A stretch of 48,942 nt of DNA from Amoeboaphelidium occidentale (lineage: Eukaryota > Aphelidiomycota > Aphelidea). The translations under genes were made by a program, and so were the position numbers. The DNA lies in NCBI GenBank assembly GCA_023515795.1, contig JALGPX010000086.1, forward strand, positions 1 to 48,942. Reading direction: 5' to 3'. Shown here piece after piece: positions 1,349-48,388 of this stretch (position 1 is its first letter; each line of letters opens with the position of its first letter). The notes below the pieces were generated by a model, which was not told the origin of the DNA, searched no databases, and saw only the letters and a list, made by a program, of their open reading frames with translations.

Positions 1349-4300
1349 ATGGACAATCCGATGCCTAATGTCCCAATTGTGGACGCAATCAAAGAAAGTC
1401 CATCGTTGGCAAGCGCTGATGTCAAGGTCAAACTTGATCAGAAAACTACTAAAGGTGATGCTGTGATTAATGTGGGCAGCATTGGCGCTGAACGTCCAGT
1501 TCAGGTCGAAAGAAAGTCTTATCAATTCAAGGCTTTGGTAAGTTGAAACGATCTTCAAAGCTTATCTAATTCTTCTTAGGCTTCTAAGACATGGAGTTAT
1601 CAGAAGCGTCAAATGTCTGTGAACATCTGCTGTGTAGTTGTCTGTCCTTTTATGATGGTTTTGCTTGCTGGTGCTCTCTCGTTGGTTCTTCAGAACTTCT
1701 CTCCTCCTGGTGCTGGCGATCCTTATGTAGTTCCCTACAGATATTGCTCAAGAGATTCCGTTCTTAACTCTCAGAATATTCCTTTGATCTTGAACGATAG
1801 CTCATTCATGTCCAACAAGGACAATGCAGGCAAAGTTCTTGGTACGAACTTCTTCATCATCGATTCATTCAGTCCTGCTGCAAGTTCCCTCCGCTCTCAA
1901 CCTTATCCCTGCTTTATGAATTTTGAAAATGACTATGAATACTTTAGTCCATACGCAAGAGATCCTGGTGTTGCAAGAACTAGAGACTCTACGTTCTTGG
2001 CAGATCCTTTGGGTGGTTTCTTCAACCCAGCTTATGGTCCTAACATTTCAACTTTTGGTGGAACGGGTCCCGGAGCAGGCGCTGGTGCTGGTACAAGTAA
2101 TCGTTCTGGTGGCTTTATTCCTACTGCAAGACCAGTCACAAACTACCCACTGTTTTCAAAACTTCAAGAGGTACAGAAATACTCATGGAATTACGTCTTT
2201 GCGAAGAACGGTATTGATGTTGGTTTTAAGAACCCAGGTTTACCTATTCCAAGACAAAACTTAATTCCAGCAGAAGGCAGCGAACCAAATAGGGCAGGTT
2301 TCTTCGGTAATACTATTACTCAATATTACAATTTCCCTGCTGGCAACACGTCCTTGTTTTTTGGCACTGACCAGTTTTGGAGAGCGGAATCCTCCGACCC
2401 AGATCAATTCGTTTTCGATGAGATAATGAAGAGGGTCTACGCTTACGAGGAAGCCTTCCAGCCACAGTTCCTTCCAAACGGCACTACTATCAATCCTCAA
2501 ATCGGCGGACCAAAAATGATGCAATTCTTCTCTCCAGCAAATTTGAACTACACTTATCCATTCTTTGGTGCTATTCATGTAGAACGATTGGATACGAGCT
2601 CTGGAAAGCTTGCAATTACATTGCAAGTTGGTCGAGTTAGTCGTTTGAGAATTGCTATGCAAATTTTCGCCGGATTCGCTCAGGCTTTTGGTTTTCCTTT
2701 CGATGTTCGTGGATTGTATCCTGATGTTGGTGAAAGATTCTTGTACCAAGTATCTAGAATCACTAATGCCATGTTTAAGTCTTCCACCAATCCTACTGTT
2801 CAGAACACTAGAGTATCTCACTCGTTCCTTGCCATGCCAAGAGATTATTTATGGCCAAGGTTCCGTTTGGGTTTCGACATTGGTGTCTTACTTGGAAAAA
2901 CTACATTCCCATTTGGCCTTTCTTTCTTGATTCCTATCTTTGTGCTCATCCTAGTCAAGGAGAAGGAAGATCGTATTCAAGTTATGATGAGAATGCACGG
3001 TTTAACATCTGGAGTTTACTATCTTTCTCATTACATCCACTTTATGATTCTTCAAGTATTCTGCTCCATCGTTTTTATAGTTGCTGGTGTTATCTTCCGT
3101 CTGAAATTCTTTACTGAAACAGATCCTGGGGTATTTATCATTTTGCTACTGGTTTGGGCTAATGCAATGGTTGCTATTTCGTTTGTCTTATCTCTGCTCT
3201 TTAACAAGAGCAGATTAGCTCTGTTGGCAACATTTGGTATTGTCTTTTTGAGTTGCATGTTCTCTTTATTCGAAGATTTGATTTTCAAGTATGCTCCTCC
3301 TCCAGATTGGTACTTCATTTGGCCTTTTTGGGCTTTCTTCCGTGGTTTGAACGTTATTGGTGATGCTAGCTCTGGATTTTACCGCCCACCTTACAAGATG
3401 TCTGATCTTACGGGAGGAGACGAAGTTCTTAAAAGCATTCTTTACCTCTTGGTCGAGGGAATCATCTTGTTCCTTTTGACAGCTTACTTGAATCAAGTGA
3501 TCCCAACAGAGTATGGTATCAGCAGACCATGGCACTTTCCTTTCTCAGACACTTACCGCTACGTTAAGAAGAATTACATGAAGAACCAAGGTGTTGACTT
3601 GGAGAAGGAGAAGCTTGAAAAGACTAAAATAACGCCAGAAGAAGAAAAGCTACTATTGGAAAAGGAAGACGATGATGTCCGTTCAGAGAATAAGAAAGTT
3701 CACGATTTACCTTTGACTCTACAGACATACAGAGATTATCCTTTGATTATCAAAGATGTCAGAAAAGTCTATTCTGGTGGTAAAGTTGCAAACAAGAGAG
3801 TTAATTTGGCTGTTGAGAAGAATATCGTCTTTGGTTTGCTTGGTGCTAACGGTGCTGGAAAGACTACATTGATACAAATGATGACCGGTCTGTATCCACC
3901 AACATCTGGAAATGCTTACGTTGCTGGTTACTCTATCCAAAACGATATGCAACAGATTTACATGAACATTGGTGTTTGTCCTCAACACGATATTGTGTGG
4001 GATGATTTGACTGTCGAAGAACATTTGCTGTTTTACGCTCGTATTCGTGGAATTCCTCCTGAGAAAGAAAAGGCAGCTGTACAAAAGGCTATAAAAGACG
4101 TTGAACTTCAAGAACATGCTCACAAATTGGCAAAGAGTCTGAGTGGAGGGTATATTTCACTTCATTTTCAATTTTTTACATTTTTAGACAAAAGAGAAGA
4201 TTGAGTATTGCAATCGCAGTTACTGGTGATGTTCCTCTGGTGTTCCTTGATGAGCCAACTACCGGACTTGACCCTGAAGTTAGACGGACTGTTTGGAATG

Positions 4301-15073: not shown

Positions 15074-16227
15074 ATGTCAGATTCCGAGCCTTCAGTATTG
15101 AGCGACCCTGAGAACATTAAAAAATTTGAAGCTGCTGCGGATATCACCAACCGTAAGTGACGCATTTAAGTCAATATTTAAAATTTTAAGGCGCATTGGC
15201 TACTGTCGCAAAAGCCGTCGTAGAAGGAGCCAAGATATTTGAGTTATGCGAAATTGGCGATAATTTCATCAGAGCTGAAGTAGCTAAAGTCTACAAAGAT
15301 GACAAAACGGATAAAGGAAAACCTATTTTAAAGGGAATCGCATTTCCAACTTCAATTAATGTTAATAACGTCATTTGTCATTATTCTCCTTTGAGATCCG
15401 ACGAGAATGGCCAAGTTCCCCTTAAGAAGGGCGATGTTGTCAAAGTTGAATTGGGAACACAAATTGATGGTTTTCCGGCTATGGCTGCTACCACGGTTGT
15501 TGTTGGTGCTTCAAAGGAAAATCCAGTCACAGGCAAAAAGGCTGATGTTATTTTGGCCGCGTATCACGCTTCTGAAGCTGCAGTGCGTTTGTTCCGCCCT
15601 GGAAAGTTCACAAAGGACATCACCGATACTGTACAAAAGATTGCCGTAGAAGAATTCAATGTGATTCCTGTTCAGGGATTTTTGTCCTCAGAATTGAGAC
15701 GTACAACTTTAGACGGAGACAAGCAGATTATTATTAATCCTTCTGAGCAACAAAAGAGTGGCAGAAAGAAGGAAGAATTTGCACTTGGTGAATTCTACTC
15801 GATGGATGTTTTAATTACCACAAGTCCTACTGGTAAATCTCGCCCTTCAAACCTCAAGACTACGATTTACAAGAGAAATGCAGATGTCATGTACGAATTG
15901 AAGATGCAGACAAGTCGTCGTTTATGTTCTGAAGTTGGTCAGAAGTTTGGTTATTTCCCATTCCATCTGAAACACACAGCTGATGAAAAGAAGGCTAGAA
16001 TGGGTGTTGTCGAATGTGTCAAGCATGATTTGTTCATGCCTTATGACGTTCTAGAAGATAAGCCTACTGAAGTTGTTGCTCAGTTCTTGGTCACTGTGCT
16101 TTTGATGCCTGATGGAGAAATCAAGAAATTGACATCTTATCCTTTTGATATCTCTTGTTACAAGTCTGAGCATTCCATTAAGACTGAAGAGATTAAATCT
16201 TTGCTGAAAGAGCCTTTGAAAAAATAA
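15074..16227 (+). CDS. PA2G4: PA2G4/EBP1-like proliferation-associated protein (methionine aminopeptidase fold)
   Basis: 371 residues, join(15074..15152, 15191..16227), intron 38 nt. PA2G4/EBP1 has the pita-bread fold of methionine aminopeptidase type 2 but no catalysis, and binds ribosomes and RNA during ribosome biogenesis. Family marks: EGAKIFELCEIGDNFI near residue 40, KGIAFPTSINVNNVICHYSP, a long central YHASEAAVRLFRPG segment, VIPVQGFLSSELRR, FALGEFYSMDVLITTS, and a Lys-rich C-terminus. The first exon is short and starts MSDSEPSVLSDPENIKKF, which resembles the family N-terminus. The splice joins at an Asn-Arg codon boundary and restores the family sequence exactly. Confidence 0.95.
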
Positions 16228-18132: not shown

Positions 18133-18939
18133 ATGTCGAAAATTCTTGACCAGTTATGCAAAGAGCCAGAGGAAAGGGCAAAGTTTGCTCAGCTAGCAGA
18201 TTATTTCAACGAGTTGGACTTGTCTGACTTGAATGAGTATGAAGACCCTGATGACTTGGTCCGTGATGTCCTTCCGGCACATCGTTTGTTAATGCGCATC
18301 TTTGTTAAAAGGTACTTGATGCCACTTCGTGAATGCAAGATCGATCTTCCGAAGGAATTGATATATTTGGTCAAAGAAGATGGTGTCGCAGTAAGATTCG
18401 CGGGTTTGTTGGTTACAACCTACCGTTCAATTATTGCGGCAGAAGGCATGACAATACCAGACCTCCACCGTTGGTTATTGAAGGGTGAATTAATCAAACT
18501 GAAGCTGAGGTTTATTGATATATCGATGAACCGCCTGCTACCTTCAGATATGAAGTATGTTTATGGTATGGTTGAAGATCTGCGCAGACGCAACATGATC
18601 GCGCCATCTGGTTTGATCTTGGATTTGTCATGCAACCGTGTTCATGGAATCGCACAGTTCAAAGAGGAAGTTGACAGATGCGTCGCATCAATAGTGAATT
18701 GACCTACTGTGGCATTCTTGGACTTGAGAGGGAATCCGTTCTCATCAACCGATCGAAGAGACTACTTCAAGAGCTTCACTTCAACATCGCCCGAAGCTTC
18801 TAACTTGATTTGGGTGGACAATATTAATTTGCAAGCCCACGGTTGACGCCCTATGGTGTCTGAAGAAGTTGTGGACGTTCTGTTGAAATCTCACGAAAAG
18901 TACTTCGCATGGAGAAAAGAGAACGGTCTTGTATTGTAA
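18133..18939 (+). pseudogene. LRR-like gene interrupted by two in-frame TGA codons
   Basis: From the ATG at 18133 the frame runs to TGA at 18700-18702, continues in the same frame to a second TGA at 18844-18846, and ends at TAA 18937-18939, with no frameshift. The part before the first TGA is 189 residues with leucine-rich-repeat-like strands (LRFIDISMNRLLPSDM, LILDLSCNRVHGI). After the TGA comes another such strand (TVAFLDLRGNPFSS), so the repeat unit continues across the stop. Normal TGG Trp codons also occur in the same frame. A nonsense-mutated pseudogene is the simplest reading; TGA readthrough or reassignment is the alternative. No catalytic domain is recognised. The neighbouring minus-strand gene shows the same kind of defect. 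Confidence 0.6.
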
Positions 18940-19071
18940 TGCACCATGCTTTTGCTTTGTTTCAATAAATAATCAGCCTTATAGTCGTGTCTGTAATGAG
19001 TTCAGGACGAAATGATCAGATGAAACAGATAAATTTCTACTGAAAGACATATTTATTTGTGCAGTATCAGT

Positions 19072-20226
19072 TTAATGCCACGGAAACCAGCTGTGCTTTC
19101 TTTTGTTTACTCAAAAAGTATCTTGAGCCACAATATTGAAGGCATCGGGCCTGACTGGTGTCAAATACGGGACTGATGGGACGAACGAATGGTCACCAAA
19201 GCAAGCGGCCAGTCCGTTCAATGAGTAGTTGACTTCGTTATCGCAGGCAATGATGACCCGCTCAATCACCGCCAGACGAATAGACAATTGTCGAAACGCT
19301 TTGGACCAATCCGAATTGGATTTGATTTCTCCAATATCCACCTTCACAAGATTGGCAGACTTCATAAAAGTAGCTTCTCCACGACAATCGATTTCCAATT
19401 CAGTGTAAAAAGGAGGCTCTTTAGCTTCCAAAGCCTTGGCAGTATCGATAACTGAAGAGCTCAGAACCATAACAGCTAAAGATTTAGTATTGTTGACAAA
19501 GTCAACCGTTAGCTGGTCTGATCACGCTAGCTCGTTGACGTGGGACGCCTTGGATGTACTGTTATTGCACTGTGAATCGAAACGTCCCCAAGCTTCAAGC
19601 AACTTTTCAGCAAATTGAACCAGCTCTTCCAAGTTTTTTTCATAGCCAGAGCTCAAAGGTGCTTTCTTTTCCAAGAACGAACGAGCAGTTTTGACATTTT
19701 GTTTGAACCTTTCTCTTTCTTTATACAGTAGTTGTTTCAACAAGTAAGAACGCCTTGATGCAAGTCCTGCAACATTCTTGTGAGGAATATCCGTTTCACT
19801 GGGAAGGGCAACTGATTTTGGAGTTGAGATTCTTATAAGACCAGGTCCGTCGAAGGCATTAAACGAGTCTTAGAATCAGGATGATGACTTGGCATGATTG
19901 CGAAATGCCATCTCGTAAGTTATGCCAACTTTGGATTCAACTCTTTGCAAACGGTTGGAAATACTGTTGAGCTCTTGCTTGATGTCTGTTCCCAGCGTCG
20001 TAAACTTTGTTGCCATATCTCTTTCTAACTCTTGTGGCAATTCATGTTTCAAATTATTTAGCTCTTGTTTCATGTCGCTTTTCATCTCTTGTGCTAGGGT
20101 TCCTATCAAGACCTTCAGCTCCTTTTTCATATCCTGCTTCAAGTTCTTGATATATTCCTTAATCGAAGTTTCGTCTTCTTTCAGGGAGCTGGTCTCCTTT
20201 GAGTCATTGTTATTATTGTGCGACAT
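19072..20226 (-). pseudogene. Broken coiled-coil gene with restriction-endonuclease-fold candidate domain
   Basis: One minus-strand frame contains the whole feature. From the ATG at 20226 it encodes an Asn/Ser/Glu-rich start and a coiled coil (repeated LKQDMKKELK-like blocks). It is stopped by TGA at 19876-19878 with, as I read it, a TAA two codons later. The same frame then resumes for about 115 codons to TGA at 19522-19524, continues to TGA at 19111-19113, and reaches TAA at 19072. The last part has ELEIDCRG followed by VKVDIGEIKSN and an aligned RQLSIRL, the order of acidic and ExK residues in PD-(D/E)xK nuclease folds. Crinkler-type effectors of oomycetes and early fungi can carry such a fold; relation to them is inference. 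At least the 19876/19870 stops look like genuine damage. Confidence 0.5.
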
Positions 20227-20289
20227 CTTACTGAAATGAATGGTTAAACTCAGACTTGATGTTTCAAACTCGAAAAGTTTGGCAAACAT

Positions 20290-21229
20290 GACTCACCTCA
20301 GTTGCTCGCAACATGACAAAGAGCAACTCTGCGGTTGCGGTTATCGTTAAGTGATGCAAAAATCCTTCAATGGCAACTACTTGTCTATTCACGCGCGCTT
20401 CCATGATCTAATGAAAGACTGCCATATTGGGGACACTCTGTAGCAAATTTTGATGTAGTCCATTTATATTTTCTAGTTCTCCATTCCTCTAAACTGTCTT
20501 AAAGTGTTCTTTACAGATATATGGAACGGGCGCAAAACTACAGCTCTCTAATTGCCGCTGAATCAGCAGGCTTTTCATTAGTTCGGCAACTAATCTAAAG
20601 GAATGTCTTCAAAGCCTACCACATCAACATGATATTGAAGTATCATGGGTTATCTAGTTCCCACATTTTCATGCAAATCTGATTTAGCTTCCAAGGGAAT
20701 AATTCTGGGCCTCATTAGCTTCCATGCTTTGCTTTTTCCCGATTTACTCGAGTTTGTTCACGATATCGTTCTCTTCTTTGAACCGGTCATAGTTACTCGT
20801 TAAGCTCTCATATAATTGTGCATAAACTGTAAAGCTCTATTCATTTTAACGCTGAATAGAGGGTTCACGGATCGCGGTTTCAAACAAGTTCTTCGAGAGA
20901 ACTGATCAACTTTTCGCTGCAAGTGGCCGCATCTTCCGTAAAAGCACCAACCACTCAAATTCCTCAGCTGCTTTATCATTTCGAAACTGGAGATTGTGCA
21001 TGTGAGTGCTGTGAAATGGTTGGCTGGTGTCATTGAGTGATTCCTGCGCAATGATTGATTGTCGTGTTGCCTTCGAAATTAGCATAAAAGGAAAGGCATG
21101 CAGCAAGAATTTATTTTTTCACTCAGATCGTCTTTTAGGAAGCTTCACTAGACTTTTCCTAAATACACATCAACTTATTAGACAAAACCTTCTTATCGGT
21201 GCAACAGAAACTCACAGGAACTCTATAAA
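20290..21229. other. Gene-poor spacer
   Basis: About 0.9 kb, long for this window, without a convincing gene. Short open frames exist on both strands, but none has a start, length and composition that look coding. No tRNA A/B boxes, no terminal repeats and no recognised transposon remains were seen. The only small structure noted is an 8-base inverted pair near 20300-20328. Confidence 0.5.
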
Positions 21230-21415
21230 ATGGGCCAAGTTAGACATATTGAGTTAATCCCAGCTGATGCTGAAACTATCAATAACAATGTTCAGACAGT
21301 TGCTACCAGGGAAGAGTTGGAAATGGTTGATAAATCAGTGATGAGCAAAGCTCATTTACTGGTTTCGAGACAGGAAATGCAAGCTCTTGGTAATTACGGA
21401 TGCATGCAGTCCTGA
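21230..21415 (+). CDS. Possible small protein, 61 residues
   Basis: ATG at 21230, preceded within a few bases by TATAAA-like sequence and followed after the TGA stop by an AATAAATAA stretch near 21432. The product begins MGQVRHIELIP and is mildly acidic with no membrane segment. There is no family recognised. It lies in a gene-poor stretch, so it may be chance; the TGA stop is rare among genes here, which counts slightly against it. Confidence 0.25.
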   Translation: MGQVRHIELIPADAETINNNVQTVATREELEMVDKSVMSKAHLLVSRQEMQALGNYGCMQS

Positions 21416-21590
21416 GCGGTCGAGGTCGTATAATAAATAATTTTTTTGCTTAACTTTCGCTTTGTGTGTATCATTGAGGTTGAGAAGTAAGACGCAAGAT
21501 CATGCATCAAAAGTATCCAATCGCTTCCGGCTGTGGAGAGTCAAGCAATGCGCATTCAATGATTTCTACGCGCCATCACGCATTATATCA

Positions 21591-21841: not shown

Positions 21842-24585
21842 ATGACAACGCCGTTGCTTTTCAACACCTCTTTAAACAAGAACAGCAGCGAGGCAACACC
21901 GTTACTGTCACCATCCCAGACTTTAGTGGAGGGAAGAGATGAACGCAGCTCAGGGTCCAGAATAGAGAAGAGTATTCCTGTAAATTCTTGCATTGAAATT
22001 CCTTCTTCTTCCTCTTCATTTCCGATACCTCAAGTTGTTATGCCACAGGAAGCTAACGGCGGCAAAGTAGGAGGATTCTATGAAGACTACGTTTACGGCG
22101 ATGAATTGGAATCTTTATTGGAAATGTTTCCGTTAGAAAGTGTTGAGAAACTTAAAATGCTTTTAGTCTCTGCTGAAGGAGATATCGAACTTGTAATGCA
22201 AATGCTCGAGGAAACTACGGAGAAGGTTCCGGACCGGATGTTCAGTTTGAAGAATTCGCCAAGAAAGAAGCGAAAGATTGTCGTAAGTTCTGAAATTGGA
22301 GAAACTCCATTCACTCGACACAAAATATCTCCGATTGTAATTGAGGAGACTCCCGGTTTATTTGAAGACGAAGACGTGATGTTTAAGGCTCCGGTGTCGA
22401 GAGTAAAGAAGTTTGTGCCAACAAAGAGAAAGAAACTTACAAGACGCGAATTTCACTCAGATTCCGAGGGTGTTGAAGAAGAATTATCAGAAAGCTCTGA
22501 AGCATTCTCGTCAGGCTCAGAGTCTGAAGAAGATATTATTGCTCCTGAACTGCAGCAACCATTATTGCAATTAGTTAATAGTCAGGATTCTACTCAGTTA
22601 ATGGAATGCTTGAACTGTTCACTAAAACAGGCCGATATGATCAGATCTGCGAGACCATTCTACTCCTTCGCTGCCTTCTTGGAATGGCTTGGTAAAACTA
22701 AAGGCATTTCAGATAGGCTTATCACAAACTATGAGAAATCAGTCGAAAGATTGCATGGCATTGACGAAATCATTTCAAAATGCACCTCTATATCTGACAC
22801 TCTATCCAAGGAGTTTGCTGAGATTCAAGACATTATTGAGAATGACAAGGAGAACAAATCTATTATGGGTTTGACTAAAGCACAACCTGACTTCGTTCCG
22901 GATGCTCTTCAAATTAAGAAGTACCAGATTGTTGGCATTAACTGGTTACTCATGCTTCACAGACATAATCTCGGCGGTATTCTAGCTGACGAAATGGGTC
23001 TTGGAAAGACGGCTCAAACTATTGTGTTTCTGGGTTTGTTGAAACAACAGGAGAGGAACGGAGAGAGTAATGGGCCGTTTCTGATTGTTGTTCCTTCTTC
23101 TACTATTGAGAATTGGAAGCGTGAATTCGAAAAGTGGTGTCCGATACTTAATGTAGAACTCTATAATGGTACACAAGCTGAAAGAATGCATCGACAAGAC
23201 GAGATAAGAAACACATCGTTTGATGTCATCTTGACAACGTATTCCTTGCTCTCTGCAAAAGATGATCGCAAATTTTTAAAATCCTTGAAATTCCAGTACA
23301 TGATTCTTGATGAGGGACATATGGTAAAGAATATGAATTCTCAACGCTACAAGAATCTGACTTACATCAAGGCCAAAAGAAGACTTTTGTTAACTGGAAC
23401 TGTTGTACAAAACAATCTGCAAGAACTGATTTCTTTATTAGTCTTCATTATGCCGAGCTTGTTCTCCGAGAACGAGGATGATATTGTCAAGATGTTTTCA
23501 AACAAGTTCAATCAAGAAAACGAACTGATGAAAATTCGCATCGACAGAGCGAGAACAATGATGAAACCATTTGTGCTAAGAAGACAAAAGTTCAATGTAC
23601 TCAAAGATTTACCTGGAAAATCGCACCACGTAATTCAGTGCGATCTCACAGCCCAACAATCCAAAGTGTATTCTAGTGTGGTTGAGAGTTCCAAGAAGTG
23701 GTGTCACAGCGTTAAGGATGCCGAAAATGAAAATGCAAACTCTGATAATGCTCCAAAAGGAAATGTCTCCAATATTCTGATGGAGTTGAGAAAAGCAGCT
23801 TGTCATCCTCTTTTAATCAGATACATTTACGATGATGCGAAATTAAAGAAAATGGCCAGACAGATTCTAAAAGAAGAACAATATTTCGATGCTAATGAAA
23901 AGTATGTCTTTGAAGACATGCAAGTAATGTCTGATGCAGAACTTCATAATCTGTGTCTAAAGAATCCCTCAATATCCTCTTACGCTCTATCCGATGAGCA
24001 ATTATTGGAATGCGGCAAAGTCAAGTATCTAGTTGAAGAATTGTTACCAAAATGCAAAGAGAACGGCGATAGAATTCTCATGTTTAGTCAGTTCACAATG
24101 ATGTTGGATCTACTAGAAATTATTCTTGAACAACAAGGCTATTCCTATCTTAGAATGGACGGACAAACTGATGTTGATGATCGCCAACAATTAATTGATG
24201 CTTATCAAGAAGACTCAGACTACTTTGTCTTTCTACTATCCACCAAAGCAGGTAATTTACTTCTCCAGTTTTCCGAATGTACTAATTTTTAATTATAGGC
24301 GGCTTCGGTATCAATTTAACTGCAGCAAATGTCGTTGTTCTATACGATCTGGATTTCAATCCGCACAATGACTCTCAAGCAGAAGACAGAGCTCATAGAG
24401 TTGGACAAAAGAAGGATGTCAACGTTTACAAACTGGTCACACAACACACAATCGAAGAGAATATTTATCAATTAGGAAACTCCAAAATCGCTCTGGAAAA
24501 GAGTGTTAATGATGGTGGAAACTCTGTTGATATTAATGGTCTATTCAGTATGTTAAAGAGTGAATGGAACAGCGAATCCCACTAA
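21842..24585 (+). CDS. FUN30/SMARCAD1-like SNF2 chromatin remodeller
   Basis: 898 residues, join(21842..24251, 24299..24585), intron 47 nt with ACTAAT near its 3' end. A nuclear ATP-dependent remodeller that, in this subfamily, works in heterochromatin maintenance and DNA-end resection. A CUE-like ubiquitin-binding segment lies near 88-125 ([20 protein letters not shown] ... VMQMLEETT), then basic and acidic linkers. The SNF2 core has DEMGLGKT near 383, the DEGH box near 490 ([14 protein letters not shown]), LLLTGT, FVLRRQK, and in the helicase C part [21 protein letters not shown] (split by the intron) and [20 protein letters not shown] plus this core fits the FUN30/ETL1 group. The start at 21842 is the first ATG in frame. 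Its TAA abuts the stop of the convergent DHHC gene with no base between. Confidence 0.93.
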
Positions 24586-26451: not shown

Positions 26452-27615
26452 ATGAACTCTTCACTTTCCGTAAAAGTATTGCAAATCATTACTGATAATG
26501 CACCAATTCAACACGAAAAACTGAAAGAGAGATTACAGCAACAACAGCAACAACAGCAACAACAGCTGAACGATGAAGTAAATGATGCTGAACTATTACA
26601 AATAATCAATCATCTAATTTCCAATTATTACATTGAATTACTAAAAGATTCTTCTTCCGGTGCTGTCCTATACAATCCCATTAAAGAAGACCATAGAAGA
26701 ACTCTATCTCAATTACAATCAAAAGAAGAAGTCATTGTATACAACCTGATAAAATCCACAGAATCACGTGGCGTATGGATCAAAGATTTACTACAAGATT
26801 CCGGTTTAGCACGTGTTCAATTAAACAAAATCCTAAAACAAATGGAACTAAAACAATACATTAAAACAGTTAAATCCAATACTACTTCCGGTGGTGGTGG
26901 TGGTGGTGGTGGTGGTGGTAATAATAATAGTAAAAAGAAACTATATCTATTACAAGAATACCAATTGGAAGATGCAGAATCAATGATGGCTGGATATGTA
27001 TTCTATACAAACGGAGAAGTTGATGTAGCAATGGTATCTACTCTATACAATACAATACTTCAATACATACAAAAGAGATATCAAAGTGATTCGCAAAAGT
27101 ATGTACCAAAAGAAGACATTTTACAATTTCTGAATAATGCAAATATCCTAACAACTACACTGGAAGATCAAGATTTATCCTTATTACTAACATCAATGGA
27201 GTATGAAGGATTGATATACAAAGATATAGTACACAATGGATATTACATTTTGACTGGAAGTGGAAGTGGAAGTGAAGCAGCAGCAAGACAAGTAGAATAT
27301 TTGTCTGAAGTTCCTTGTGCTAAATGTAAACAGTATAAATATTGTAGTGTAAAGAGTGAACATGTAAATGCGNTACTAACATCAATGGAGTATGAAGGAT
27401 TGATATACAAAGATATAGTACACAATGGATATTACATTTTGACTGGAAGTGGAAGTGGAAGTGGAAGTGAAGCAGCAGCAGCAGCAGCAAGACAAGTAGA
27501 ATATTTGTCTGAAGTTCCTTGTGCTAAATGTAAACAGTATAAATATTGTAGTGTAAAGAGTGAACATGTAAATGCGAGAAAATGTGAATATTTCCAACAA
27601 TGGATGGACCTCTAG
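26452..27615 (+). CDS. RPC6: RNA polymerase III subunit RPC6 (RPC34), assembly-disturbed
   Basis: RPC6/RPC34 is a winged-helix subunit of the Pol III initiation subcomplex (with RPC3 and RPC7). Tandem winged helices are suggested by [20 protein letters not shown]-type stretches (the genomic copy reads VYNLIK...GVWIKDLL) and [20 protein letters not shown]; the C-terminus has the Fe-S-type cysteines [10 protein letters not shown] and a C-x-Y-F-x-x-W end. A poly-Gln run near residue 28 and a run of ten Gly codons near 147 are local expansions. At 27373 there is an N, and a 189-bp stretch is present twice around it (27184-27372, 27374-27576), which doubles part of the third domain. Taking one copy out leaves the frame unchanged, so the true protein is probably about 325 residues. 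Confidence 0.85.
27184..27576 (+). repeat. Direct repeat around N at 27373 (RPC6 3' part)
   Basis: Copy 1 is 27184-27372 and copy 2 is 27374-27576. They are identical as read except for microsatellite length: copy 2 has one more GGAAGT unit and three more GCA units. The single N lies exactly at the seam and replaces a base of the repeated sequence. This is the signature of two contig ends that overlap but could not be merged. Confidence 0.85.
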
Positions 27616-33284: not shown

Positions 33285-35115
33285 TCAAGAGATGGAATTC
33301 AACACATCTGATAAAGATTTCTTTGGTACATGAAGTTTTTTGGCATTCGTAAAAGTGAATCTGCTCTGACAGAGTTCTCTTTCAAGCCATCTAACATTTC
33401 GAAACATAAATAAATCATTCGATACAGTTTGACGCATCTTTTCGCATTTAGACTTGTCGAACTTTGCTCTTTTGACGAGAATGTTATTAGCGCCTAGAGA
33501 ACGAGCCCAATTGAACTTTTGATTACCAGGTATTTCCATTCTGATGATTTTGGTTTTATGTCCATTCTCATTAATTCCTGAGACATGAACAGGGACCTTG
33601 ATTTTGCTTGTCTTGCTGGATGCTCCATTGTAAGTCTTTGATATGGTCTTCTTCACAGAAGATCCACTTGGTTCATCTTTGTATTCATTACTCTTTCCGA
33701 CCCATCCTCTGCAATTCTCACTTCCACAAAAACATTCCATGCGTTTCTCCCCAAACGAATGCCAATTGTAGTCATATGTAATCTCTTCGTTAGCAGCTAT
33801 ATTCCTACTTGCAAAAATTCCGACACAAATCTCTCCATCAACATGCCATTTTTCTATGTGACAATTTGGATCACATGAGTGATTTACAAATCTAACCATT
33901 AGTTTAAAGTTGAAGTGTGACTTACCTAGCTTCATTTCCTTTTAGCCCGCCATCCACAACTTCGCCGTTAGCATAATCTAAGAAGTACAAGCATTGTTGG
34001 TTTTTGTATATTGTTTCAACTCTCTCTGCCAATAGATCGCTTGAAATAACTTCACCAACATATTCTATAAGCAAAGTTCCTTGTTGTATTGAATTCATTG
34101 TTTTCATTCCAAAACCACTGCCTTCACCAGCATAAAAAACTACTAAATCTTTCAAAAATTGTTTCTTCTGGAATGCTTGATTTGAACATTGAGCACCACA
34201 AGGACAATTATTGGGATTACATTCAATAAAAGTCAACCTATTAATACAGTCATCTAAGCATCCTGGAGAACCATCTGCTGGAGGTTTGCACTCACATCGT
34301 GGTGTATGATCATCATGGCGCCGTTTCCTTTCGATGAATAAGTTGTTTCGTATTTTGGTATATGATTTCGGCTGTCTGGCCTGCGAGAACATAATATCAT
34401 AAGGTACATAGAATTCTTTCTGCTGTTTCAAATACCACTCACCAAAATTGACTGGTAAAGGCAGAAATCTCCGGCCTTCATGTTTTACCTGAGTAAGCAC
34501 GTTGTCATTCTTAAATTCTGCCAATTCTTGCGTTGATAATTTATAGTCGATGGAATACATACCAGCTCTGAGAAAATTCTTATCAGGTAAACCAGGCATA
34601 ACTTGAACTTCTTCATCCTGCCAGACGTCCACTAAAGCCTTTTTTAAATTGTTAATTAGTGAAATATCAATGTGTACCTGTTTCTTAGACCTTTTACTTA
34701 ACGAAGGTGATCCACGCTTTCGCTTAACTGATTTCTTCTTAGGCTTCTCTGGAGAGCTCTCATCCACTGTTTCATATGATCCCAATGAACTTAAGTCGCT
34801 TCCACCAAATATGTCGTCGTCGTATTCGCTCGCACCAACAACATCGGCCGATGATTCAGCTGTTACAACAACAGCATTATGGTCTTCCGTTACAATCTTT
34901 GTTTCAACTTCCAGTTTTCCGCCCATAATCATGGCGACATCGGCCAACTCATTCAAGTTATGTGTCACTTGCATCTGAATGTTGTTTGAAGGAATATTCT
35001 CGACATCTTGAGGACAAATTGTTGTAAATAGTTTCGACGGCTCAATAGTAGTACAAACGTAGTTTTCGGTCTGCTCTTCCGGTATCCCATTTCCCATATT
35101 TAGATCAAATAGCAT
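33285..35115 (-). CDS. ASH1/NSD-like SET-domain histone lysine methyltransferase
   Basis: 598 residues, complement(join(33285..33891, 33926..35115)), with a 34-nt intron, the shortest in the window. The ATG at 35115 is the first in frame. An acidic N-terminus and a basic patch (KPKKKSVKRKRGSPSLSKRS) precede an AWS-type Cys-rich region (RCECKPPADGSPGC, CNPNNCPCGAQCSNQAF). The SET domain follows: GEGSGFGMKT, IEYVGEVIS, NEAR|FVNHSCDPNC (split by the intron) and ITYDYNWHSF, then the post-SET CFCGSENCRGWVG. Order and motifs match the H3K36-methylating SET2/NSD/ASH1 group, with ITYDYNWHSF closest to ASH1. The stop is TGA. The C-terminal 150 residues are basic and unassigned. It converges with the sorting nexin gene (13 bp). 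Confidence 0.92.
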
Positions 35116-45796: not shown

Positions 45797-48388
45797 TTAA
45801 TGCTTCTTAATCGCCATCCAGCAGCTAGCATACATATTTACCCTATCAATACATTCCCCAACCATAACTAAATCCTTTCCAACACCGATTGATTCCTTTC
45901 TCTTTTCAATTAATTTATCTTCGTTTCCTAGCCATTCATTCCATCTCTCACTCTTCAACTCCTTCTCAGAACAACGAATTGAAATTGGAACGACTTCGAA
46001 ACCATGCTTAACAAATGTTCCAATATACCAAGGCTTCTTTGATGAAGAACGGAAAAGAATGCGACCATTCATACGTAAGCGTTCATGGAATAATGAGACT
46101 TCTTCTTCAGCTTGCTCAGATGTGAACCAGTCCATGTGATCCATAACAACAGCTTTAGTCAATGGTTCTTCTAAACCAGCTGCAACGTCTTCCTTTTCAT
46201 GTTCGACTCTAGCAATTCTTTTTCTCAAGACATTAGCAATTGAGTCAGTGTGGATTCTGACTGCTCTCAAATTCTTTGAGCTTGTCAACTTCTTGTGACC
46301 TTCTGGAGTCAAATACGTTGGACACTGTTTCTCTGCATTACCAGCATATCTCTTAGTCAAGCAGAGATGGTAGAAGTAACTGTCTTTTGCGAGCAACGTT
46401 TTGTCAACAGTAGGATCAAAAGTATTAGCAACGTAATCATAGCAAGATCCTTCGTTCAACAACATTTCAAACTGTCTTCGTGGTACACCAAGAGCAATCC
46501 ATGCAAACTTGTAATTGTTCAACAAACCAATCCACTTTCTATCCAAGAAATGCGGACGCAAGTCATTGTACCAAATTTCCTTTTGTTCTTCACTTGTTCC
46601 AGCATTCGAGAATCTTTCAACAACATCGTGCAATCCTTTGAACCAAACTAGAAAGCTAAAAGCTCTGATAGCTAAACCAGAACAACCAGTTTCGTAAAAG
46701 TTATTGAATGAACCATTGTGCTTCCAGAAGGAAAACGCTTGAGGTGACAAGTACGGAGACAAATGAGTATCCAAAATCGAAGCAAAGTCAGGATGATAAC
46801 CTTCACCAAACAAACGCCAAACATCAGAGTAAGGTAAACCAGAAATACTTGCAAGTTTCAATTCCATCAAGTGACCTTGGCAAGGATTCATGTCAACGCA
46901 GTGAACACGGTTCGGACCTTCTAAACAATATTCCAAAGCGTTACAACCACCAGATGTCAAGCAAAGAATGTTATCAGAACTGTTTACGTCCAATACTTTC
47001 AGGTCAACAGTAGGATCCTCCCAAGTGAAAGCATAGATATATGTTGCCATTTCAGGCAGAGAAGCATAGTCAAACGGTTGGCGCCATTGCAATCCTTGTC
47101 CATGGATATGGTTGACAGTCAACTTTTCAATATTCTTCTCTGACTTCTCAATAGACACTTCAGCAGCCTTTTCGAACTTTTCGACAGCGTCTGGAATATT
47201 CTTCTCACCATCAGCTTGCGTAGAGGTCGAAGAAGACAAAGTTTCTGTGTTTGCAGTGCTCAACCAGTTACCAGACAAGACGCTTTCGTGACTCTTTCTT
47301 GTTCCCAGCCAAACATAGTAAGGGATACCAACAGCATTCTTAACCACCCAGTTGGTCATATTTGCACCCTTGATTGTCAAGAATCTGTGCTCCAAGTATT
47401 GTCTTCTCAAAGGGTGCAAGTGAACACCATCTGTTTCAAACCAAATTTGCCAGAACCATCTTGTCAAGAAAGAATGATGTCTAGTTGGATCATCTTTGGA
47501 TGGAACATTCTCGGAAACGTAAAAGTCAGCAACACCAACAACACCATTTGGGTGAATCCACTTTTCCATTTGATCAACAACAGCGAAAGGTCTCGGCCTA
47601 TAAAAAGTTAGTTATCCACAACATGACAAAAAAATTACATCATCGAAAGTGCGTAACTTAACGTAATTAAGCCAACTTCGCATTCTGGATCATCCAAGCA
47701 TGGAGGAACCCAAGACAAAACATCTGCACAGATTACATGAACATTCTTCCAGCCCAAAGTTTCAAAACGATCCTTAGCTACAGCGCACAAAGAAGGTGTA
47801 ATATCAACCAAGTAAACAGCCTCGAAATTTGAAATCGGAATATAGTTATTCATTCTCTCAATGTTCCAACCAGTACCACCACCCAAATCAATCCAGACAA
47901 GCTTCTTTGGGCGCATGGGTGTAGGGCGCAAGTAAGGAGAACTTGGTGGAGAAGGAATAGCCAAAGCTGCTTCAGACTCGACTTCAGAATCCTTCAAGTA
48001 AACTTGTTTTACTTGTGCAGCAACCATACGCAACATGGTCGAACGACCCCTTAGCAAGAACTGGCGTGTAGCATCGTAGATTTCACTTTGGCCACGGTAG
48101 AAAGTTTCCAAACGGCGTTGATGAGCATTAGTTGACTGAACAGACTTGTCTTCGGATACAAACAGAGGCTTGATGAAGCAGTTGAAGGCAAACAGCGAGT
48201 AAGTACGGATCGTCATATTATGCTTGTACAGTAGGAGAAGAGCAGACACCAAAGCACACAACACAACCGTTGGCCTCAAAGGGAACGGTGAGAACCAGAA
48301 GCAGAGAAAATTCAACAACCTACAGGATCGTTAGCACTACAATCCTCTAATGAGAAACTTACATGAAATATCTTATTTGAACCTTCAT
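45797..48388 (-). CDS. BTA1: Betaine lipid (DGTS) synthase, BtaB-BtaA fusion
   Basis: 835 residues, complement(join(45797..47597, 47639..48319, 48363..48388)), introns of 41 and 43 nt with CTAAC branch-type sites. The enzyme makes diacylglyceryl-trimethylhomoserine, a phosphorus-free lipid. N-terminal hydrophobic helix (VVLCALVSALLLLY), then an S-adenosylmethionine methyltransferase domain (VWIDLGGGTGWNIE, motif I; LSYALSMMPRPFAVVDQ after splicing), then the DUF3419/BtaA aminocarboxypropyltransferase part (YASLPEMATYIYAFTWEDP, LCLTSGGCNALEYCL, VDMNPCQGHLMELKLA). Methyltransferase before BtaA is the fungal order; algae have the reverse. The first exon of 26 nt encodes MKVQIRYFM only partly. 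Divergent from the HAD gene (105 bp). Confidence 0.94.

Follow-up and report, generated by a model that had tools for sequence, protein, structure and literature searches.

In Amoeboaphelidium occidentale, two tail-to-tail genes are probably in decay after nonsense point mutations interrupted them. Both contain premature stop codons beyond which their homologues continue to align. The genes lie on contig JALGPX010000086.1, whose whole length of 48,942 bases is here called the window and from which the deposited A. occidentale protein MP638_006805 (P0005) also derives. Amoeboaphelidium is placed in Aphelidiomycota, and aphelids are parasitoids of algae (PMC10608142). The main text of that paper contains zero occurrences of "intron," "pseudogene," "stop codon," and "genetic code," and among the matches listed for Amoeboaphelidium and for the UGA readthrough literature, none had a title that dealt with recoded TGA in aphelids. 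The features of the two genes are given below, where P0006 and P0007 are the two proteins by which one close relative covers the minus-strand gene, and where family columns are counted over five relatives of the plus-strand gene, namely P0002, P0003, P0004, and the A. occidentale copies C11 and C89.

18133 to 18939, plus strand: gene of an LRR-like family, running from an ATG at 18133 to a TAA end at 18937-18939 and interrupted in frame by two TGA codons, recognized from homologues and from copies in its own genome.
18700 to 18702, plus strand: first of the two internal TGA codons, followed by C; at this column the family has Cys in 3/5 relatives and Ile in 2/5.
18844 to 18846, plus strand: second of the two, likewise followed by C; at this column the family has Trp in 5/5 relatives.
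19111 to 20226, minus strand: interrupted gene, comprising an N-terminal frame, a frame without Met that runs up to 19522, and a C-terminal frame; the TGA at 19111-19113 is its natural end.
19876 to 19878, minus strand: internal TGA; P0007 ends three codons earlier, and its next codon would match 19885-19887.
19870 to 19872, minus strand: internal TAA, read from the sequence.
19522 to 19524, minus strand: internal TGA; Gly in the relative's P0006 (92% identical).

The four internal TGA codons reported by the initial annotation, at 18700, 18844, 19522, and 19876, are all present in frame, with the TAA at 19870 besides. The TGA at 19111, which had also been listed there as an interruption, is the minus gene's own end, and P0006 ends at the same place.

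The plus gene runs as a single continuous frame, free of frameshifts, from 18133 to an ordinary TAA. A protein search with it returned four proteins among 884 candidates: the gene's own reading frame as far as the first TGA (P0001, 189 amino acids) and three homologues with 43 to 55% identity, which are P0002 (from JGI), P0003 (from A. protococcarum), and P0004. At least three further copies are present in A. occidentale itself, C11 (40%), C130 (31%), and C89 (26%), and the C11 copy is unbroken. The three homologous proteins align without gaps across both TGA codons, and of the 77 residues past the first TGA, 43 are identical to P0002 and 48 to P0003, so the continuity of the plus gene over its TGA codons is not a matter of chance. 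The earlier observation that the plus-gene frame carries on across both TGA codons without a frameshift is confirmed. This gap-free alignment also speaks against introns in the plus gene, for which no splice model that takes out the TGA codons is plausible. The C130 copy was left out of the TGA columns because it enters N before reaching them, and a 20-base row of the homologue alignment (L003) was excluded from all counts. The two sites, with the hexamers TGACCT and TGACGC, are both of the UGA-C type. The suggestion that Trp fits both contexts holds at 18844, where every relative has Trp, and fails at 18700, where the relatives have Cys or Ile.

The plus-gene family is best described, from its sequences and one structure model, as LRR-like only. 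No Pfam LRR profile matched it above the curated cut-off; the best match was that of P0002 to LRR_4 (E 0.00095, 19.8 bits, cut-off 27). A structure model of P0002 (mean pLDDT 72) gave weak Foldseek matches to LRR chains, the best with an E value of 0.007 and none at 0.001, and a PDB sequence search with P0002 gave zero matches. The C89 copy (L005, G000:C89:94888-98391) differs from the C130 copy by two one-base gaps over a 610-base comparison, at 91% DNA identity, and is frameshifted; it also carries a TAA in its first part. At least one other member of the family is thus broken.

Loss of constraint past the first TGA was assessed by a leave-one-out count of the columns in which the three other sequences agree. 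The plus gene departs from the agreed residue in 7/34 such columns, P0002 in 2/29, P0003 in 2/29, and P0004 in 9/36. Against P0002 and P0003 pooled (4/58), the plus-gene count gives p 0.09, and the corresponding comparison before the first TGA gives p 0.35; P0004, which departs most of all, was excluded from the p 0.09 test, and including it would weaken the contrast. Four of the seven plus-gene changes sit in the motif adjoining the TGA at 18844, at residues common to the three homologues. These departures lean toward decay without amounting to proof of it.

The minus gene runs from an ATG at 20224-20226 to its TGA at 19111-19113 and has stops inside at 19876 (TGA), 19870 (TAA), and 19522 (TGA), again without a frameshift. 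It is present once in the genome searched. P0007 matches it in 131 of 134 residues and ends just before the TGA at 19876, a site that has no alignable column; P0006 matches the later part in 194 of 209 residues, and its start aligns with the first possible start codon of the minus gene after 19870. The positions of the end of P0007 and the start of P0006 together suggest that the relative's gene is interrupted near 19870-19878 as well, P0007 apparently ending because of a stop codon rather than because its contig runs out. At 19522 a check for Trp had been proposed, and P0006, the only relative that covers the site (1/1), has Gly there. Differences from the relative number 15/209 after the stops and 3/134 before them (p 0.049), or 14/208 against 3/134 (p 0.076) when the start Met of P0006 is omitted. 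Taken with the plus-gene departures, these counts may be weak signs of relaxed constraint in both genes.

By eye, the N-terminal frame of the minus gene suggests a coiled coil, and its C-terminal part may resemble PD-(D/E)XK nucleases. Pfam gave no match for the C-terminal piece, a PDB sequence search with P0006 gave only two matches, both with E above 0.5, and a structure model of P0006 was too poor for use (mean pLDDT 46). Upstream of its ATG the minus frame also stays open as far as a further ATG (20287-20289), and P0007 keeps 20 of the 21 residues encoded by the stretch 20227-20289 on that strand, which suggests that the true start of the gene may lie upstream of the annotated ATG. The 1.2 kb at 20230-21440 has no convincing frames, and within it 50 to 52 bases match contigs C35 and C30 at 84 to 85% identity.

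The use of TGA elsewhere was examined in a codon sample of 225,963 bases from 46 sequences, including the contig under study, with frames of at least 250 codons. The 88 long frames that end in a stop use TAA 50 times, TGA 25 times, and TAG 13 times, and 16 more reach a sequence end or an N. TGA acts as an ordinary stop in the sampled sequence, in agreement with the earlier view that it is not reassigned genome-wide. The open stretch past the stop has a median of 8 codons after TGA, 6 after TAA, and 10 after TAG (means 16.6, 11.6, and 13.8), and it reaches 40 codons or more in 3/25, 3/50, and 1/13 cases, respectively. Single stops with coding-like 30-codon flanks at a lower-quartile cut comprised 10 TGA, 9 TAG, and 7 TAA, and at a stricter cut 3, 3, and 2; with 40-codon flanks at the lower-quartile cut there were 5 TAG, 4 TGA, and 1 TAA. 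At the loosest coding cut, TGA made up 44/91 of the interrupting stops, about its share of all open-flank sites (354/774). The codon-score scan is insensitive, as the sites at 18700, 18844, and 19522 all fall below the lower quartile with 30-codon flanks.

Two decaying genes account best for these observations, and of the three options offered by the initial annotation, that of pseudogenes is the best supported. The plus gene, one of at least four family copies, would have gained two premature TGA codons, and the minus gene would have been broken in two places, near 19870-19878 and at 19522. The products of both genes would be truncated, and the loss may have been tolerated because their functions were dispensable or redundant. 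At the three alignable TGA sites the relatives have, in turn, mostly Cys, Trp, and Gly, which fits independent nonsense mutations and not one new codon meaning. In line with decay, TGA closes more than a quarter of the long frames in the sample, shows no clear excess among the interrupting stops with coding flanks, and is accompanied in the plus-gene family by a frameshifted sister copy (C89) and, beside 18844, by four changed residues that the homologues share. Other observations count against decay. Neither gene is frameshifted. Four of the five internal stops are TGA, whereas single-base stop gains would be expected to give TGA in 19 to 25% of cases at the rates tried; the chance of at least four in five is 0.006 to 0.016, counted post hoc. 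The frames ended by TGA have the longest mean extension in the sample, and both plus-gene TGA codons stand on Cys or Trp columns and are followed by C, the combination that UGA readthrough would best tolerate.

An intact minus gene, spliced as in MP638_006805, is the least improbable of the other explanations, although we consider it unlikely. The deposited model leaves out two segments of the gene and with them all three internal stops:

19869 to 19964, minus strand: "intron 1" of the deposited model, 96 nt, GC 0.41; most of its protein reading is retained by the relative; probably an artefact.
19518 to 19559, minus strand: "intron 2" of the deposited model, 42 nt, GC 0.57; its protein reading is kept in the relative; probable artefact.

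Both segments have GT..AG ends, and at the first place the relative's protein likewise comes in two pieces, which is what an intron common to both would produce. Both are, however, multiples of three in length, and the relative keeps 25 of the 26 residues obtained by reading through "intron 1" as far as P0007 extends and reads the "intron 2" stretch in frame and without a stop in P0006. Five other introns of the same contig were located by eye, with reading frames and protein motifs as the guide, at 4150-4187, 15153-15190, 24252-24298, 33892-33925, and 47598-47638. Their host genes we take, from those motifs, to encode an ABC transporter, an SNF2 protein, an EBP1-like protein, a SET protein, and a BTA1-like protein. 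These introns are 34 to 47 nt long with a GC content of 0.18 to 0.32, in contrast to the two model introns, and three of the five carry a CTAAC/T stretch close to their 3' end. A splice-site score learned by EM from 40 candidate groups placed the model introns among the other candidates and was too noisy for use. Overall, the two introns of MP638_006805 are probably gene-caller artefacts, a way round the stops, judged from their length, composition, and reading in the relative; the verdict is less certain for "intron 1," since the relative's split at the same place would also be expected from a real intron. A model in which the TGA codons are spliced out, which had been named as an observation that would overturn the claim of interruption, does exist for the minus gene, with introns that are probable artefacts, and no plausible one exists for the plus gene. 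Because MP638_006805 hides the stops of the minus gene, comparisons that use this protein may inherit an error.

Less likely again is that the plus-gene TGA codons are leaky, near-cognate tRNA-Trp or tRNA-Cys decoding UGA-C to give a minor full-length product with near-ancestral residues. The TGA columns, Cys in most relatives at one site and Trp in all at the other, and the C that follows each codon favor it, and in yeast tRNA-Trp as well as tRNA-Cys reads UGA-C (PMC6614816). If two stop gains fell at random, the chance that both would be TGA on Cys or Trp codons is 0.0048, or 0.00013 with C as the next base, figures that were computed post hoc and depend on inferred ancestral residues. The plus gene has seven other Cys and Trp codons, and C follows none of them; C after 3/25 of the normal TGA ends in the sample neither supports nor excludes leakiness. 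Against it, the efficient fungal readthrough motif, UGA-CU or UGA-CUA (PMC4207609), is absent at both plus-gene TGA codons, as it is in the minus gene (TGATCA and TGATTC). Two leaky stops in series would multiply their yields to a very small output, and conserved residues adjoining the TGA at 18844 have changed. In its more specific form, in which the UGA-C leaks insert the Cys and Trp of the closest homologues and the plus gene is kept at a very low full-length output and is not dead, the proposal is slightly more doubtful still. If it were true, the breaks in the plus gene would partly undo themselves, and the gene would make it possible to test in nature whether nonsense mutations are mildest when they strike a Cys or Trp codon that is followed by C.

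It is very improbable that the stops come from base-calling or assembly errors. The assembly of the contig is imperfect, with three single-N joins whose flanks are duplicated, yet these joins lie at 27 to 30 kb, away from both genes, and it is unlikely that five separate errors, each creating a stop, would fall within 1.2 kb. The joins are at 27373, 27930, and 30405; their left and right flanks duplicate each other over 190 to 376 bases at 89 to 93% identity, with one 203-base stretch at 100%. They are unmerged contig ends or haplotypes, and the local reading frames are disturbed there.

That A. occidentale reads TGA as a sense codon, be it for Trp or a different residue and be it in all of its genes or only in some, is scarcely credible. 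Trp in all five relatives at 18844 speaks for it, and so would the TGA count at the loosest coding cut if TGA were not about as frequent among open-flank sites overall. On the other side, the aligned residues differ at 18700, 18844, and 19522, and the columns of Cys, Trp, and Gly led us to reject TGA as Trp throughout; TGA also ends normal frames in the sample. Among 39 tRNA matches (37 typed by ARAGORN, as 24 plus 13, and 2 by eye) there was one tRNA-Trp, with anticodon CCA, and the proposed search for a suppressor tRNA-Trp(UCA) yielded none among these 39, in a scan that is a lower bound (63 of 546 first-look candidates scored). A DNA search of the genome with the tRNA-Trp(CCA) gene found only itself. 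DNA acquired from a source that reads TGA as Trp, another of the options first offered, is not supported, in view of the same three columns and of the company the genes keep: the named homologues P0003 and P0005 are both from Amoeboaphelidium, and three further copies of the plus-gene family lie in the same genome. A profile search for eRF1 with PF03463 and PF03464 found a single locus, presumably Dom34/Pelota. These genome searches covered 204 contigs and 11,314,846 bases (11.3 Mb), and a published table gives the A. occidentale assembly as 13,559,732 bases (13.6 Mb) (PMC10608142), so genome-wide absences apply to the searched part only.

Selenocysteine at the TGA at 18700 is the least credible explanation of all: Cys, the usual counterpart of selenocysteine, stands in 3/5 relatives at that column, but the other aligned TGA codons fall on Trp and Gly, and in the 11.3 Mb searched there was no match for tRNA-Sec or for selD (selenophosphate synthetase), in a search that could miss an intron-split gene.

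Set beside known systems, this locus is a caution: clustered in-frame TGA codons resembled recoding, and homologues put them in unlike columns. It shares with selenoproteins a TGA in a mostly Cys column and differs from them in the missing tRNA-Sec and selD matches. Like genomes that use a TGA = Trp code (table 4), it has a TGA in a Trp column, at 18844; unlike them, it belongs to a genome in which TGA ends genes in our sample, no UCA tRNA was found, and the other aligned TGA codons are on non-Trp columns. The likeness to fungal UGA readthrough is closer, in that the plus gene has UGA-C twice, on a Cys and a Trp column, but here the CU or CUA motif is absent and there are two TGA codons in one gene. 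The two genes differ from recent pseudogenes of multi-copy families, which arise by birth and death, in that both lack frameshifts and in that four of their five internal stops are TGA. They resemble such pseudogenes in their premature stops within alignable frames, and the plus gene does so too in having a frameshifted sister copy (C89) and, at another place in its genome, a copy that is unbroken (C11).
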